From: Prevotella melaninogenica | Lineage (GTDB): Bacteria; Bacteroidota; Bacteroidia; Bacteroidales; Bacteroidaceae | NCBI RefSeq assembly: GCF_018128065.1 | Contig: NZ_CP072359.1 | Coordinates: 744,001 to 808,000, forward strand | Length of the DNA: 64,000 nucleotides | Direction of reading: 5' to 3' | Shown: one piece after another, positions 6,541-18,906 of the stretch | Layout of the letters: the number at the start of each line of letters is the position of its first letter | Position numbering within the stretch: the stretch's first letter is position 1 | Position numbers and translations under genes: made by a program | The notes under the pieces: generated by a model | The model's database searches: none | Seen by the model: the letters and a program-made list of their open reading frames with translations, nothing else | What the model was told of the DNA's origin: nothing

Positions 6541-6614
6541 GGTGCGTTAGTTCAGTTGGTTAGAATGCCTGCCTGTCACGCAGGAGGTCACGAGTTCGAG
6601 TCTCGTACGCACCG
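6541..6614 (+). tRNA. tRNA-Asp (GTC), copy 1
   Basis: 74 nt fold into a full cloverleaf. The acceptor arms are GGTGCGT / ACGCACC with G as discriminator. The anticodon stem is CCTGC / GCAGG with loop CTGTCAC, giving anticodon GTC at 6575-6577. The T-arm carries GAGTTCGAGTCTC. CCA is not encoded, so it must be added enzymatically. Confidence 0.97.
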
Positions 6615-6639
6615 CTGAAACCCCAAATCTGTAATGCAT

Positions 6640-6713
6640 GGTGCGTTAGTTCAGTTGGTTAGAATGCCTGCCTGTCACGCAGGAGGTCACGAGTTCGAGT
6701 CTCGTACGCACCG
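6640..6713 (+). tRNA. tRNA-Asp (GTC), copy 2
   Basis: An identical 74-nt copy of the preceding tRNA starting 25 nt after it, with the same anticodon GTC and no encoded CCA. The two share one promoter and one terminator, so they are probably one processed transcript. Confidence 0.97.
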
Positions 6714-6721
6714 CTGAAAAG

Positions 6722-6750: not shown

Positions 6751-6880
6751 GTTGGCACGCTCAGCATGAGCATTATGTCTTTAACGGCAAAAATAGAAGG
6801 TCAAACACGCTGAATTATCTTTACAAAAAAATCTTCAAAGACTTGGAAAAGGCATCAAAAGAAGTAATTTTAGTTCCTTT

Positions 6881-7025
6881 GTAAGTTACTTGTTCTCAAC
6901 AGATTACAAAGGCGGTTTCAAAAGGGCATTAGTAAGGGTCTTAAAGGGCGTTAGTAAGACCTCAAAAGGGCATCTTTTAGAAGCCAATAGGGCGTTAATT
7001 GAAAGACAATAAACGCCCTATTGTT
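6881..7025 (+). repeat. Modular GGGCRT repeat, copy 2
   Basis: It begins with the same GTAAGTTACTTG as copy 1 and continues with GGGCATTAGTAAG, GGGCGTTAGTAAG, GGGCATCTTTTAG and GGGCGTTAATTG units. The last unit is complementary to nearby ACGCCCTATTG (7013-7023), so the end can form a hairpin. It directly precedes the IS1380 tail. Confidence 0.7.
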
Positions 7026-7214
7026 TTTTTGAATTTGAATTATTTTTACAACACGAGGTATGAAAGAAGAAAGAAACTTCTCACGCTTTCGTAAGAGGCG
7101 ATACGTTCCTACAGCTCTTCTCAAAAACACCGAAAAACCTCATAACAACATATAGAGCCCCTAAAAGAAATCTCAACATAAAAATCGCCTCACAAGAAAA
7201 AACGCTGCGGAATT
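7026..7214 (+). mobile_element. IS1380-family relic: tail end only
   Basis: This stretch matches the 3' tail of the other IS1380-like copies: the GAATTTGAATT string, GGTATGAAAGAAGAAAG, GATACGTTCCTACAGCTC, and a segment that reappears in reverse at 15711-15790. It ends with the terminal inverted repeat CTGCGGAATT at 7205-7214. No transposase remains. With the copy starting at 8952 it brackets a two-gene cassette, both relics pointing the same way. Confidence 0.65.
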
Positions 7215-7228
7215 GAGTTTCTCCTTTA

Positions 7229-7699
7229 TTACAAACGGTCTGTCTGACCAGGTTTAATGTTCTTATAATCGACATTCAGTTTGGCAAACTCAATCTTCAG
7301 TTTCTCCAATTTGGGATTCGCCTTGTTCGTAGGAAATGATGTCGCTACCAGACGAGCTTTCCTTTGCCGATTGCTAAAGCTGTCGAATGTAGGATTATTT
7401 GCTGTTGCAAGCAGCTGTTGCATGCCATGAATGGCATCATGCCCTTTCAGTTCAACGAATATCTGTGTCCATGCTTCCTTAGACCCTGCCGATGTCTGTA
7501 CCATCACCAACTTGTCACATTTGACACCAGTCTTTATGATGTAACCGTCAACTTGAAAGACCGCAGACCGCAGATTCCCTTGAATGTCAAGAGTGTATTT
7601 CTTTCCTTGCTCCCGTGTGGCAACCGTTTTACGTACTTCGAGGGACTGTTCAGCCTGATACCCAGCACGAGTCAAGTTCTCGTATGTACTTTTCCCCAT
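7229..7699 (-). CDS. PD-(D/E)XK-like small protein partnered with an ATPase
   Basis: A 156-aa soluble protein of no named family that I recognise. Residues 60-88 read as Asp62 in KCDKLVMVQ, followed by Glu83-x-Lys85 in IFVELKGHD. This D...(D/E)xK spacing between beta-strand-like segments is the core of PD-(D/E)XK nucleases; Glu20 could be the upstream acidic residue. The C-terminus is basic and alpha-helical. Its ATG follows the ATPase stop by two bases, so the pair is co-translated. ATPase plus small nuclease pairs are common in phage defence, which makes that the leading inference, but the active site is only pattern-matched. Confidence 0.7.
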   Translation of the reverse strand: MGKSTYENLTRAGYQAEQSLEVRKTVATREQGKKYTLDIQGNLRSAVFQVDGYIIKTGVKCDKLVMVQTSAGSKEAWTQIFVELKGHDAIHGMQQLLATANNPTFDSFSNRQRKARLVATSFPTNKANPKLEKLKIEFAKLNVDYKNIKPGQTDRL

Positions 7700-7701
7700 G
7701 A

Positions 7702-8937
7702 CTATTCTGCGTATAATATTTCATTGATACGACCCACATGCTCATCGACCCAATCAGAGACACTATCCAAGTTTATACCAGAGAGCATCGGTATCTCCAT
7801 ATCTTTGATGTCCTCGAACACACCATCTTTGTTGATGAAATATGCCGAGAAAGCATCTGTTGGAAGCAACGTACTTTCGTCAATCACATCTTTAAGCCTT
7901 TCGTCGCCGGGCTTCTTCTCAACGGCTGCTGCATCTGCTATCAAGACATTGAGTATTGACAGCACGTAAGGGCTATGTGTAGTGAGTACCACCATAGAAC
8001 GATGCTTGCCAACTGACTTCACAGCTTTCAGATGGCGTATGATGTTCTGCACAAGTTTACGTTGCGCATCGGGATAGAGGTTCTGCTCCGGCTCTTCTAT
8101 GAAAAGTTGTGCCGACTGGTATTTCATCTTCTCACGGATTGGAGCCAACTCCTCTTCCGTGACCTCATGGGCACCATGTACGATTTCATTGCGTACATCC
8201 GTATCTAACGACTCCATGAGGCGGTTCATCAAATCCGTCATACTGAATTTGACTACCTTTCCTACTACACCCATAATATAATCTGTCATCACGTCGATAG
8301 GCATGATTGACTGGACACCGCTTGAAGCATAGAAAGAAGTTATAGGCTTGCCGTTTGGCAGCACCACATAATCAAGTCCTTTATCGCTATAATATTTGAA
8401 ATCATCTGTCAGAGAAAGATTCAACTTGTTATCAGAGCCATAAGTATCCTTTGCCTCATACCACTCCTGTATGAAATTGAAGATGGAATCCCTTTCCTTT
8501 GCTTTATACGTGTCATTGATGTTCTGAACGGCAGAAACGAGATTTCTTTCAGCCGGAATATAGGACAGTTTGGAATTATACCTATCCTCCCAAGCCTCTA
8601 ACTTGCGGTTGATTTTAGCATTCTGGTCAACACCTGTCAGTGAGATAGTAACCATATCACCGTCATAAATGATTTCGGTGCCCTCCTTGAAATACATTTC
8701 ATCAATACGGTGAAATTGTTTCAGCTCCCTGGTAAAACGCTTGTTGTGTGTATATGCCTGAATTGTGTTATCAAAAGAAGTCATTATCTTCTTCTCTATC
8801 CAACGGCAGAAGCATAACACCTTCATGAAAGTGCTCTTACCAGAACTTTGGCGACCGATGACAAGCAGCACATCGGTTAGATTGATTAGACCAGTATCTT
8901 TGATTGGTCCAAGATTTTTTATCTGAATTGTTGCCAT
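7702..8937 (-). CDS. AAA/ABC-type ATPase (AAA_15/21-like), first gene of a two-gene cassette
   Basis: The 411-aa protein has an ABC-class nucleotide-binding fold split by an insertion, as in OLD/RecF-like and AbiEii-like ATPases. Walker A is GRQSSGKST (28-36). An ABC signature-like SSGVQS lies at 205-210. Walker B with catalytic Glu is LFIEEPEQNLYP (278-289). The H-loop is TTHSPYVLSIL (319-329). No Toprim or other nuclease domain follows, so the effector is probably the small gene behind it. The ATG at 8937 lies only 14 nt from the IS1380 inverted repeat, so its promoter may be inside or near the mobile-element end. Defence function is inferred from architecture and context. Confidence 0.88.
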   Translation of the reverse strand: MATIQIKNLGPIKDTGLINLTDVLLVIGRQSSGKSTFMKVLCFCRWIEKKIMTSFDNTIQAYTHNKRFTRELKQFHRIDEMYFKEGTEIIYDGDMVTISLTGVDQNAKINRKLEAWEDRYNSKLSYIPAERNLVSAVQNINDTYKAKERDSIFNFIQEWYEAKDTYGSDNKLNLSLTDDFKYYSDKGLDYVVLPNGKPITSFYASSGVQSIMPIDVMTDYIMGVVGKVVKFSMTDLMNRLMESLDTDVRNEIVHGAHEVTEEELAPIREKMKYQSAQLFIEEPEQNLYPDAQRKLVQNIIRHLKAVKSVGKHRSMVVLTTHSPYVLSILNVLIADAAAVEKKPGDERLKDVIDESTLLPTDAFSAYFINKDGVFEDIKDMEIPMLSGINLDSVSDWVDEHVGRINEILYAE

Positions 8938-8951
8938 GTTATTCTATTATA

Positions 8952-9697
8952 CCTTAATTCCGCAGCGTAAAATCTTTTAGGAAATACAAGTGCCTGACAA
9001 ACAAAGTTCTCAAAACACTTTGAGATGTCAGAATTTTCACCTATCTTGGTGATGCAAACTTAACAAATAAACAAAAATCTGACATGACAAAGGTAGCAAT
9101 TAAAAACGAGAATATCACTTCTTTCGGAGGAATTTATCATATTACGGATGTTTTTCAAAGTTGAGTTTTGAAAAAACATCTGACAGGTCTTACTGTTTCA
9201 ACACAGCAGAGAAGCTGAACACCTACTTTTACGGATGATACGGAGAATGGGGGTTATATAGAGTTCTTCCGTTAAATGCGTGGATGTTTTTCGTATAGCT
9301 TTAACGGAAGGAGCGAAGTTATGCGTTAAACAAATAGATAGTCAAGACAGTCTTGGCTACCTACTTTATTATCGTCTTCCGATGCAAAAAACCTTTTCAT
9401 ATTAATTCTTTAATAATCCGCTTTTTGAATTTGAATTACCTTTACAACAAAGGTATGAAAGAAGAAAGAAAGAGGGTGTGTCAAAATGCAAATTAATAAC
9501 TTGACAACTTTCAATCTATAAGTAGGGTTCTTCTAAAGGCAAAGAAAAGACCATTTCTTTACTCAAAATCGAGTACAGAAATGGTCTTTTTAATGAATTG
9601 TTTCAAACTGTAGGATTATCAAAATGGAATTTGCATTTTGACACACCCTCCGATACGTTCCTACAGCTCCTTCTCAAAAATACCGAAAAAATTATGC
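8952..9697 (+). mobile_element. IS1380-family relic, internally deleted, interrupted by a MITE
   Basis: The inverted repeat CCTTAATTCCGCAG stands at 8952-8965. A transposase start (MTKVAIKNENITSFGGIYHI) follows at about 9084, soon frameshifted. Then comes a later piece reading SDRSYCFNTAEKLN (about 9180-9225), so the middle of the transposase is missing. The tail with GGTATGAAAGAAGAAAG is cut at 9472 by a 179-bp MITE, and the tail sequence GATACGTTCCTACAGCTC resumes after it. The far inverted repeat is lost. Orientation is the same as the relic at 7026-7214. Confidence 0.75.
9472..9650 (+). repeat. MITE-like 179-bp inverted-repeat element, copy 1
   Basis: Terminal inverted repeats of about 23 bp begin GAGGGTGTGTCAAAATG and end in the complement. 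Inside lies a long stem built from AAGACCATTTCT and AGAAATGGTCTT, resembling a two-way transcription terminator. No ORF fits inside. Sister copies are at 28861-29039 and, inverted, 42871-43050. It is nested inside an IS1380 relic, so it moved later than that IS. Confidence 0.85.
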
Positions 9698-15696: not shown

Positions 15697-16145
15697 CCTT
15701 AATTCCGCAGTATTTTTTCTTGTGAGAAAATTTTATATGTTGAGACGTCATTTTGGGGCTCTATATGTTGATATGAGGTGCTTCGGTGTTTCTTGGCTCT
15801 TTTCTAAGCATAAAATCCCCCACCCAAACCAATGGGGAAGTATGAAAAAACACAAAAAATACTTCCATAACAGAATGCTTTGCCGCTACTTCCACGTTTA
15901 CCCAATACAGATTCGGTAAGTTTTTCAAAGCCCAACTTTGAGAAAACGTCCATAATGTGATAAATTCCACCGAAAGAAGTGATATTCACGTTTTTAATTG
16001 CTACCTTTGCCATGTCAGATTTTTGCTTACTTGTTATGTTTGCAGCATCAAGATAGGTGAAATTTCTGACATATCCAAGTGTTTTGAGAACTTTGTTTCT
16101 CAGGCACTTGGAGTTCTCACAAGAGTTTATGCTGCGGAATTAAGG
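15697..16145 (-). mobile_element. Internally deleted IS1380-family element with both ends
   Basis: A 449-bp element keeps both inverted repeats: CCTTAATTCCGCAG at 15697-15710 and its complement at 16132-16145. Read on the minus strand it encodes only the transposase N-terminus (MAKVAIKNVNITSFGGIYHI, then MDVFSKLGFEKLTESVLGKR). It then jumps to the distal tail (the 7120-7200 type sequence), so most of the transposase is missing. Because both ends remain, it could be moved in trans by a full-length IS1380 copy. Confidence 0.8.
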
Positions 16146-16160
16146 TAAGGTAAACCATAT

Positions 16161-17447
16161 ATGAACCATCATTTTATCAACTCTATACTTCAATGGCTGC
16201 TCATTGCTATTGTCTTGAGAGCAATCGGAGCATTGGTCTTAGGGGTCGTTGCCGATGGCGGTAAGGGGCCGACAGTGATAGGTCTGCTCATCGGCGGGGC
16301 GCTCATCTGGGCAGAGCATTACACCGAGAAGCGGGCCGAGAAGCGTGACGTGCTGGAGATGGAGACGTCGGCAGATAAGGCGGAGGACGGCACGGATGCA
16401 TTGCCAGCGAGCGAGGAAGCACCGACCGAGAGCTATCGCATCGAACGGGAAGACAATTTTTCCACAGCCATAGAGGCACTGACGCATCAGGAGATTGCCG
16501 CAGGGCAGAATAGAGTGCTTGCTTTTGAAGACTCGATGGTGTACGCCTATGAGCTGACGGAGGTAGGATTGCTCACGGGAAGCGGAGAGCAGATGCGCTT
16601 CTCGGTGGTGATTCCGCTGCGTCGCAGCAACTGGCAGACGGAGCAGGAAGAGATAGAGAGAAGGCTCGCAAAGGTATGGAGGGGTATGTGGCAAGACTAT
16701 GTTTTTGAGACGGCGCATGCGTTGTCAGAGAGCAGCCTGATGCTCAAGATAGAGGCTTGCGGGCCGGTAGCCCACGCCGTGAAAGCGTTGAAGCCCATGC
16801 AAGATATACTTCACGAGATTATCATACGTCGGGATCTGCATCTGTTAGACTCGTATTTGCTCATTCACGGCTATGATTGGCCAGAATATGCCTATCTTAG
16901 AGGTGGACAGGTGGTGCACGATTTCAGAGAAGAAGAGGGTGTGGCAAGAAGTGTGTACCATGAAGATGAGGCGATGGCTGTGGCACGACTGTACGACTTC
17001 CAAGACTGCCAACGCATCAGCGAGGCGGAGTATTTAGAGGCACTTTCCTCTTACGCCCACCTGCCTTTTGCGTATCATGGTTCTTACTTGGCGTATAAAA
17101 ACAATAAGTTCAAAGGCGTAGTCTTCACCATGATTGCGGGCAAATTCCACTTGTTTTGCAGTATTGACGAGGCCTACTTTACGACGGATCTGAGCATGTT
17201 TGACCATTTGGAGGAGGCACGTCAGTATAACTGTCGAGTGATGGAGGTACGCTTCAGATACGACCATCTGCCCATGATGCGCCTGCTGACAGGAGAGATA
17301 TTATATATCGATGTGGTGCTGGAGAAGTATGGAGAGCCATTCTATTATCTTGTTCCAAGCTCGTATGGCGGCAGAGATTATGCTCGCATCAAGGCCGATT
17401 ATGATGCTGCGAAGGTGGCAGAGATAGGGGTGAAGATGAAACTTTAA
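16161..17447 (+). CDS. Uncharacterised 428-aa protein with N-terminal membrane anchor, GC-rich
   Basis: A hydrophobic N-terminus (about residues 8-50, two segments with a Gly-rich turn) anchors a large soluble domain, preceded by an acidic linker (70-95). The soluble part contains MRFSVVIPLRRSNW, a stretch of acidic helices and FDHLEEARQYNCRVMEVRFR, but no motif I can tie to a known enzyme. The gene has clearly higher GC and more CG dinucleotides than its flanks. It begins 15 nt after an IS1380 end, with another IS1380 end 0.95 kb after its stop. Both points suggest acquisition from another genome. Confidence 0.75.
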   Translation: MNHHFINSILQWLLIAIVLRAIGALVLGVVADGGKGPTVIGLLIGGALIWAEHYTEKRAEKRDVLEMETSADKAEDGTDALPASEEAPTESYRIEREDNFSTAIEALTHQEIAAGQNRVLAFEDSMVYAYELTEVGLLTGSGEQMRFSVVIPLRRSNWQTEQEEIERRLAKVWRGMWQDYVFETAHALSESSLMLKIEACGPVAHAVKALKPMQDILHEIIIRRDLHLLDSYLLIHGYDWPEYAYLRGGQVVHDFREEEGVARSVYHEDEAMAVARLYDFQDCQRISEAEYLEALSSYAHLPFAYHGSYLAYKNNKFKGVVFTMIAGKFHLFCSIDEAYFTTDLSMFDHLEEARQYNCRVMEVRFRYDHLPMMRLLTGEILYIDVVLEKYGEPFYYLVPSSYGGRDYARIKADYDAAKVAEIGVKMKL

Positions 17448-17691
17448 TATAGTATAGCCTCAAATCCGCAACTAAGCCTTTCAACGTCCTTCTTGCGTGT
17501 ACACATCCTCTCATTATTGAATTTGCAGATAATTTGAACTTGAAGCACCCACTTTTGCCTACAATATCCCCTTACCCCACAATGTGACTTGAGGCAATAC
17601 GCAATATCATTCCCATAAGTTGGGCTCTTCAGCAATAGGGAGTGATAATCTGAATCTATTACACAATAAGCCAGACTGAGTTACAAAAGAA
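17448..17691. other. Intergenic, possible gene remnant
   Basis: A minus-strand frame reads CKFNNERMCTRKKDVERLSC and neighbouring residues, which could be the tail of a lost gene, but the frame is short and unrecognised. Confidence 0.25.
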
Positions 17692-18385
17692 CTATTTCCT
17701 CTTTGCCTTCCTCAACACTATTCTCAACGAATCAGTAAGCACTCTTTTCTCATTACACATAAGAAAATCTGATGGTAGAATAGATAAGGCTAAAGAATCT
17801 TCGCCCCCTTTGCCTTGGTGTTCATAACGTAATTGAACTGAGATGATTCTATTCTTTACGTGCGTATTATTGGCTTTATATGTATTGGTTCCAGAGAACG
17901 AAAAAGACTTCCCTACCTTTATATTCTTATCATAAAAGTCCAACTGTAAAGAGTCAGGATTCATTACATATTCTCCCTTTAACCCCAATCGGTCATTAGA
18001 GCCTAAACATATTTTGTTTTATTATCGAGCAGATTGTTTGGCTTTGTAACGCAGGCGTAGCGGGCTACGTCAAGTTACAAAGACACACAAGATGCCGATA
18101 AGAAAATAAAAGATGTTAGGAAACAATACCATAGTAATAAGAATTATACATATTGAGGTCTAATGACCGATTGGGGTTATAATTAAAGAGAAGGTAATAC
18201 CAGCCACCGAAGTACACACTGCTGACCTTAACCATACGATTCTCTGATAAATGAATATCATGGCTAAACTTGTTGTTATCTAACGGAAGAATAAATCCCG
18301 TATCACATGACAGAAGTGATAACAAGAAGAAAGCGTAAAGCCCCAACCATTTAATGCGCCAGCAACTAACTATCTGTTTCGACAA
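17692..18385 (-). pseudogene. Lipoprotein gene split by a 21-bp inverted repeat
   Basis: The 5' part (18385-18116) encodes a lipoprotein signal with lipobox LLSLLSC and then LPLDNNKFSHDIHLSENRMV, ending at a stop after YYYGIVS. The 3' part (17988-17692 and upstream in the same frame) reads SNDRLGLKGEYVMNPDSLQL and ends LRIVLRKAKRK. Both parts contain the same 21-nt sequence in opposite orientation. Either two small genes exist or one lipoprotein gene was interrupted by an insertion or inversion of the 158 bp between the repeats. No family is recognised. Confidence 0.5.
17980..18179. repeat. Perfect 21-bp inverted repeat enclosing 158 bp
   Basis: AACCCCAATCGGTCATTAGA (plus a preceding T) at 17980-18000 is perfectly complementary to 18159-18179. 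The enclosed 158 bp include a GC-rich stem: TTTGTAAC pairs with GTTACAAA around GCGTAGC / GCTACGT. Such an arrangement could be invertible or a mini-element. Confidence 0.8.
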
Positions 18386-18395
18386 TATATTAATA

Positions 18396-18692
18396 CCTTA
18401 ATTCCGCAGCATAAATTCTTGTGAGAACTCCAAGTGTCTGAGAAATAAAGTTCTTAAAACACTTGGATATGTCAGAAATTTCACCTATCTTGGTGCTGCA
18501 AACATAACAAGTAAGCAAAAATCTGACATGGCAAAGGTAGCAATTAAAAACGAGAATATCACTTCTTTCGGTGGAATTTATCACATTATGGACGTTTTCT
18601 CAAAGTTGGGCTTTGAAAAACTTACCGAATCCGTATTAAGCAAACGTGGAAGTAGCGGCAAAGCATTCTGTTATGGAAGTATTTTTTGGCTC
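18396..18692 (+). mobile_element. IS1380-family relic: one end plus transposase N-terminus
   Basis: The inverted repeat CCTTAATTCCGCAG (18396-18409) is followed by a transposase start at 18528 (MAKVAIKNENITSFGGIYHI). The frame runs to CYGSIFW and is then joined to an unrelated IS fragment near 18693. It points away from the GC-rich cassette, so that cassette lies between two IS1380 ends in inverted orientation. Confidence 0.75.
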
Positions 18693-18906
18693 TTTCTTCA
18701 TTCACGGCACTCAATGTGGCAAAAATTATGTGCAAGGAACTTGGTACGTCCATCGGTCGCCTTAAAGCGAAGATGATCAATGCCTATTACCCGCAACGAA
18801 TTATTGACGTGTTCGAGAAGAGCCCGAACAAGCCATTAAATAAAGAAAGGATAAATGATATATTTAGTTTTGCTGCTGATGCAGCATAATATTTAACGGA
18901 CTATTG
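18693..18906 (+). mobile_element. Right-end fragment of an IS4-superfamily-like element
   Basis: The frame encodes a transposase C-terminus (SSFTALNVAKIMCKELGTSI, then GRLKAKMINAYYPQRIIDVF and INDIFSFAADAA). It ends in the inverted repeat TTTAACGGACTATTG at 18892-18906. The family placement (IS4-like DDE) is by resemblance of the C-terminal helices only. The same end recurs at 19598-19612 and in reverse at 27979-27993. Confidence 0.6.

Follow-up and report, generated by a model that had tools for sequence, protein, structure and literature searches.

The closest tested system found for the gene pair described here is WonAB, from the WASA-1 prophage of Vibrio cholerae. WonAB pairs an OLD-type ABC ATPase with a PD-(D/E)xK nuclease, both of which are needed, and acts by abortive infection (PMC12137116). 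Protection was lost in the WonA mutants K34A, R182A, E300A and H333A and in the WonB mutant K71A. The two proteins, WonA (AWB73975.1) and WonB (AWB73976.1), are predicted to form a complex, and growth arrest occurs through a translation block for which an rRNA or tRNA target has been suggested. The authors propose a larger family in which ABC-ATPase sensors work with nuclease effectors (PMC12137116). The present pair lies in a stretch of 64,000 nucleotides from Prevotella melaninogenica (NCBI RefSeq assembly GCF_018128065.1, contig NZ_CP072359.1, positions 744,001 to 808,000; the whole stretch is termed the window), on contig C1, one of the two contigs of a genome of 3.34 Mb. It couples an ATPase gene to a small predicted nuclease gene between two insertion sequence (IS) relics of the IS1380 family, and it is probably a two-gene anti-phage system of the WonAB/PDC-M29 class, where PDC stands for phage defense candidate (PMC11514479).

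The ATPase and its predicted nuclease partner

The unit and an associated signal occupy the minus strand, as follows:

7229-7699, minus strand: predicted PD-(D/E)XK nuclease (putative effector), 156 aa; an open reading frame (ORF) with active-site candidates D62, E83, K85 and Q95
7702-8937, minus strand: OLD/ABC-type ATPase (putative sensor), a relative of PDC-M29A, 411 aa; identified by ORF, Pfam, PADLOC and motifs
7236-7250, minus strand: terminator-like hairpin at the 3′ end of the nuclease gene, from a consensus scan only

The two reading frames are separated by 2 nt. The ATPase possesses a Walker A motif, GRQSSGKST, at residues 28-36 (K34), a Walker B motif, LFIEEPEQ, starting at residue 278, and an H-loop histidine, H321, within TTHSPY. 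It matches AAA_15 (3e-19) and AAA_21 (5e-15) in Pfam, and the Pfam scan found neither a nuclease nor a TOPRIM domain. An initial annotation, made from the letters alone, had described two coupled genes with a 2-nt gap and an ATPase with an intact Walker A, Walker B and H-loop and no nuclease domain, and all of this was borne out. Among the best 25 of 79 PADLOC families matched, PDC-M29A was by far the top hit (E 2e-55, with residues 1-380 aligned to positions 1-379 of 410), followed by AriA (4e-20), PD-T4-4_A (4e-15, best stretch 276-410), and PtuA and GajA (3e-9 each). A PDB search with the ATPase gave only a weak match to the retron Eco8 OLD protein (E 0.11), and the NCBIfam Eco8 model scored 37 bits vs a cut-off of 250.

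The 156-aa protein was modeled with AlphaFold2 at high confidence (predicted local distance difference test, pLDDT, 92.2; predicted template modeling score, pTM, 0.89). The top structural matches of the model were mainly PD-(D/E)XK enzymes, the best VIA match being EndoMS. Residues D62, E83, K85 and Q95 were invariant in 41/41 aligned sequences, selected out of 137 homologues and including that of the window. The protein is thus confidently modeled as a PD-(D/E)XK-type nuclease; its D62 and E83-x-K85 motif had been pointed out beforehand, and the nuclease-type core then proposed as a structural check is present in the predicted fold. Searching the PDB sequences with a profile of the nuclease returned nothing meaningful.

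The family placement of this short nuclease is looser than that of its ATPase. Against PADLOC the window protein had no match at E<=1, PDC-M29B included, while 14/41 of the aligned family members matched PDC-M29B, with a best E of 6e-5. Longer partners occur beside distant ATPases, and 23/33 of these match PDLC04563. A kinship between the short and long partners is suggested by matches to PDC-M29B and by a resemblance in predicted topology; a direct hhalign comparison of the two families was not significant. One further homologue of the partner nuclease, in genome G098 (L060:2720-3649), is about 310 aa long, which suggests fusion with an extra domain.

Comparison with described defense systems

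Clearly, the strongest resemblance by PADLOC is to PDC-M29, for which the literature search found no paper using the name. The window ATPase matches PDC-M29A over nearly its full length and has its partner adjacent and downstream; the nuclease is a short form, at most weakly related to the PDC-M29B model.

The likeness to WonAB is one of architecture and published description, the window pair being known from sequence. Both systems consist of two genes, an OLD/ABC ATPase that lacks a fused nuclease and a separate, adjacent PD-(D/E)xK nuclease, assigned in the window by predicted structure and motif, and in both ATPases the Walker A lysine is residue 34. They differ in phylum and in the position of the nuclease lysine, which is K71 in WonB, where it was tested, and the candidate K85 in the window protein. 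The pair fits the description of the proposed ABC-ATPase sensor/nuclease effector family, and we infer by analogy that the same logic would apply. It is read here as a Bacteroidota variant of the WonAB class and not as a new kind of system. The initial annotation had called it undescribed, which is too strong: the ATPase already has an entry in PADLOC, PDC-M29A, and experiments on a system of the same architecture, WonAB, appeared in print in 2025.

Other systems are more distant. The C-terminal part of the ATPase matches PD-T4-4_A of Escherichia coli (4e-15), but the nuclease has no PD-T4-4_B match. Septu, Gabija and PARIS share the same broad ATPase superfamily (PtuA 3e-9, GajA 3e-9, AriA 4e-20), and PARIS differs in that no AriB match appeared in the family scans. 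Septu was rejected, as the partner lacks a match to PtuB (HNH) at E<=1 and PtuB is not one of the five families to which the 41 aligned sequences gave matches. Gabija is defined by an ATPase fused to TOPRIM and by a UvrD-type helicase partner. It was rejected as well, with an ATPase that lacks TOPRIM, a 156-aa partner without a family match and no helicase partner.

Linkage of the two genes across genomes

A sample of 39 loci from GTDB genomes, anchored on the ATPase and including near-duplicates such as L024/L026 and L034/L035, carried a partner nuclease directly downstream in 35 cases. Thirty of these partners are relatives of the 156-aa protein (those in L015, L020 and L028 being short fragments), and five (L038, L040, L043, L046 and L047) are proteins of about 200 aa with a similar ExK motif. 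The remaining four comprise two loci that stop at a contig edge (L031 and L035), one that is partnerless (L018) and one with a different partner (L044). The last of these, a protein of about 170 aa behind a related ATPase (L044:7092-7601), hints at a possible exchange of effectors.

Within the genus, nuclease matches were found in 12/200 genomes, the window's own included. An ATPase match lay beside the nuclease in 11 of these 12, and the other, G050, had no ATPase match at E 1e-20. The neighborhood search proposed with the initial annotation has found the genes together in 35/39 loci and 11/12 genomes, and the pair stands as a real unit whose linkage is conserved. ATPase-like matches as such were broader, occurring in 27/200 genus genomes and mostly at lower identity. 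They gave 30 loci (L056 being the window itself, and L061 and L083 one gene), of which 12 had the short partner, 2 the long partner and 16 neither; the distant ATPases therefore include other families.

Proposed function and alternative explanations

In the mechanism proposed, the OLD-like ABC ATPase, probably as a dimer, would act as the sensor and would keep the small PD-(D/E)XK nuclease bound and under control. An infection cue might then shift the nucleotide state of the ATPase and activate the nuclease, which would cut nucleic acid, RNA (tRNA or rRNA) if it is WonB-like, with DNA also possible. Cleavage would halt phage growth at a cost to the cell, giving an abortive outcome. On this model, IS1380-derived ends probably put the unit in place and may also drive its transcription. 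Such a system would extend the WonAB-type class of sensor ATPase and effector nuclease to the Bacteroidota of the human mouth and of other animal-associated communities, and its compact form (411 + 156 aa) makes it easily expressed for testing.

The surroundings of relatives bear on this proposal. From 36 loci, 123 nearest neighbors were chosen and 116 scanned, a non-exhaustive survey with no background control. Among the best 25 of 154 families were Drt3a and Drt3b, each matched by two members. Ten hand-picked neighbor proteins were then scanned singly. At L040 (4256-10519), the relative of the pair is set between the type III restriction-modification (R-M) genes Mod (2e-187) and Res (1e-146); at L038, it is followed by PtuA and PtuB; Drt3a was located at L013 and Drt3b at L021. 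Four of the hand-picked neighbors, from L010, L030 and L041, had no match at 1e-12. A Bacteroides plasmid carries a 53% relative and a viral contig a 40% relative.

ABC/AAA_15 ATPases paired with nucleases also work in DNA repair. A housekeeping or repair pair, Rad50/RecF-like with a nuclease and no part in phage defense, is the leading alternative, and EndoMS as the best VIA match of the nuclease would suit it. It is nevertheless unlikely, given the patchy presence of the pair (12/200 genus genomes), its varied neighborhoods, the four relatives that lie within or next to R-M, Septu and DRT3 loci, and the others on a plasmid and a viral contig. Slightly less probable again is a toxin-antitoxin-like stabilizer, in which the nuclease would be a toxin, held in check by the ATPase, that serves mainly to retain a mobile element. 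A small nuclease with a larger partner, in a tight operon amid mobile-element ends, is what such a module would look like; the analogy with WonAB speaks against it, however, since WonB toxicity requires WonA and is not neutralized by it, according to the published report (PMC12137116). Decay into a non-functional relic between IS remnants is very improbable: both IS copies are worn and the partners of three relatives (L015, L020 and L028) are short fragments, but both reading frames here are intact, the key residues are retained and near-identical homologues abound, the best 120 of 3378 ATPase database clusters all being 97-100% identical and a single 92% nuclease cluster having 427 members. 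A defense role, as the initial annotation suggested, is likely by analogy.

IS1380 ends flanking the pair

Three segments of IS1380-family sequence border the pair:

7122-7218, plus strand: right end of an IS1380-family relic, whose tip (7218) is separated by 10 nt from the stop codon of the nuclease gene; sequence matches
8952-9175, plus strand: left end of a second IS1380-family relic, whose tip (8952) is separated by 14 nt from the ATG of the ATPase gene; sequence matches
9176-9258, plus strand: the same relic, resumed past an internal deletion (IS positions 457-540); sequence match

The ends at 7122-7218 and 8952-9258 both read on the plus strand, with their bodies pointing outward and in the same direction, just as had been noted earlier, and the interval between their tips (7219-8951) is 1,733 bp and nearly all coding. 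The left end has 9 further copies in the genome, at 83-90% over about 224 bp (best E 7e-82), plus 3 shorter matches. At G000:C1:740711, an intact relative codes for a transposase of the IS1380 type, and the transposase of an intact copy of 1,603 bp (L048) scores 263 bits vs the NCBIfam IS1380 cut-off of 180. Target duplications of 4-5 bp flank 9/16 of the long copies (1.2-1.6 kb) and none of the seven short elements (354-450 bp). The literature search on IS1380 and miniature inverted-repeat transposable elements (MITEs) in Prevotella gave nothing on IS1380 among the matches listed.

A composite IS1380 transposon, and mobilization of the pair by IS1380, is plausible but unproven. Of the earlier suggestion that IS1380 copies moved the pair, the two partial copies in the same orientation are in favor, whereas the outer ends have been lost, together with any target duplication beyond them. 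Neither outer end was found, the inner flanks of the two relics shared no repeat by eye, and no empty site was found with one genome per species compared; the near species that match both flanks have them on different contigs (G003) or about 25 kb apart (G026).

The tight spacing of the ATPase start and the left tip has a second possible source. Across 28 left tips, which include the window's own and two beside the same gene in two species, 9 lie within 20 nt of the ATG of a frame of at least 80 aa, vs 5.5% of randomly placed positions (6.3% where these are AT-rich). Right tips do so in 1/16 cases; the difference between left and right has a p of 0.067 at 20 nt and of 0.015 at 45 nt (12/28 vs 1/16). 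Since left tips favor gene starts in the genus, tight spacing on that side alone is no evidence for a composite transposon, and it may reflect a habit of the IS1380 element or selection.

A candidate promoter box, TAnnTTTG, occurs in the left end, the first such box in 6/6 and the second in 5/6 of the copies inspected. An outward promoter was not apparent there, as the first box falls within transposase codons and no -33 partner was seen, and a sigma-70 scan gave 9 sites vs 7.8 in shuffles.

IS1380-derived elements as possible cassette boundaries

IS26 units and integron cassettes are familiar cases of cassette exchange. A comparable but tentative reading, which we consider possible though rather doubtful, is that IS1380-derived elements of oral Prevotella, often transposase-less and about 450 bp long, bound exchangeable gene cassettes, the defense pair being one cargo. 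Each cassette would begin a few nucleotides from a left tip, which may supply a promoter, and cassettes would be swapped or stacked in same-direction arrays, much like IS26 units or integron cassettes. Were it true, these bacteria would be trading defense and effector genes without integrons or phages.

A 449-bp transposase-less IS1380 derivative was found in at least 6/200 genus genomes. In 7 of its 8 near-complete copies, the ATG of a frame of at least 80 aa lies 0-25 nt off the left tip, and three of these seven tips adjoin one and the same gene; in the remaining copy there is a GTG at 18. At one site (window 15697-18704; L195, L196 and L111), the outer flank of the 449-bp element is common to G000, G146 and G132. 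A gene of 427-428 aa stands beside the left tip in G000 and G146; in G132, its place is taken by a DUF2931 gene and a Tle1-like gene, then a second element end. By Pfam only, the exchanged cassette of G132 (L196:3519-6175) thus carries a type VI secretion system Tle1-like phospholipase gene after the DUF2931 gene. The same 428-aa cassette as in G000 occurs at a different site in G003, where two elements in inverted orientation enclose it and an 8-bp repeat lies outside them, which is not clean proof because the flanks are also inverted-repeat-like. In G016 (L110:7538-11963), five same-direction IS1380-derived elements, one without a recognized right end, have genes placed tightly between them, including a flavodoxin gene, and one gene has its start 0 nt and its end 1 nt away from element tips; this looks like a gene-cassette array. 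Against the cassette reading, the relics beside the ATPase pair are other deletion forms than the 449-bp element, and the link between the pair and this pattern is therefore weaker.

Repeats around the unit

Repeats of other kinds lie farther out:

7026-7137, plus strand: direct repeat copy 1, flanking the whole unit; repeat search
9422-9690, plus strand: direct repeat copy 2, split by a MITE; repeat search
9472-9650, no strand: MITE with 23-bp perfect inverted ends; inverted repeat, with at least 7 further copies in the genome at 88-93%

The outer limits of the region first singled out coincide with the direct repeat (7026-7137 and 9422-9690). By eye, the repeat can be read as the 5′ portion of a short ORF starting MKEER, and its 15-base core occurs in the genome twice exactly and once with a mismatch. 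It was rejected as part of an IS1380 body, being absent from the intact copy. A dispersed repeat family at 6790-7073 recurs in most of the best 40 scored of 131 genome candidates; this repeat sits between the cassette and two identical tRNA-Asp genes (6541-6615 and 6640-6714).
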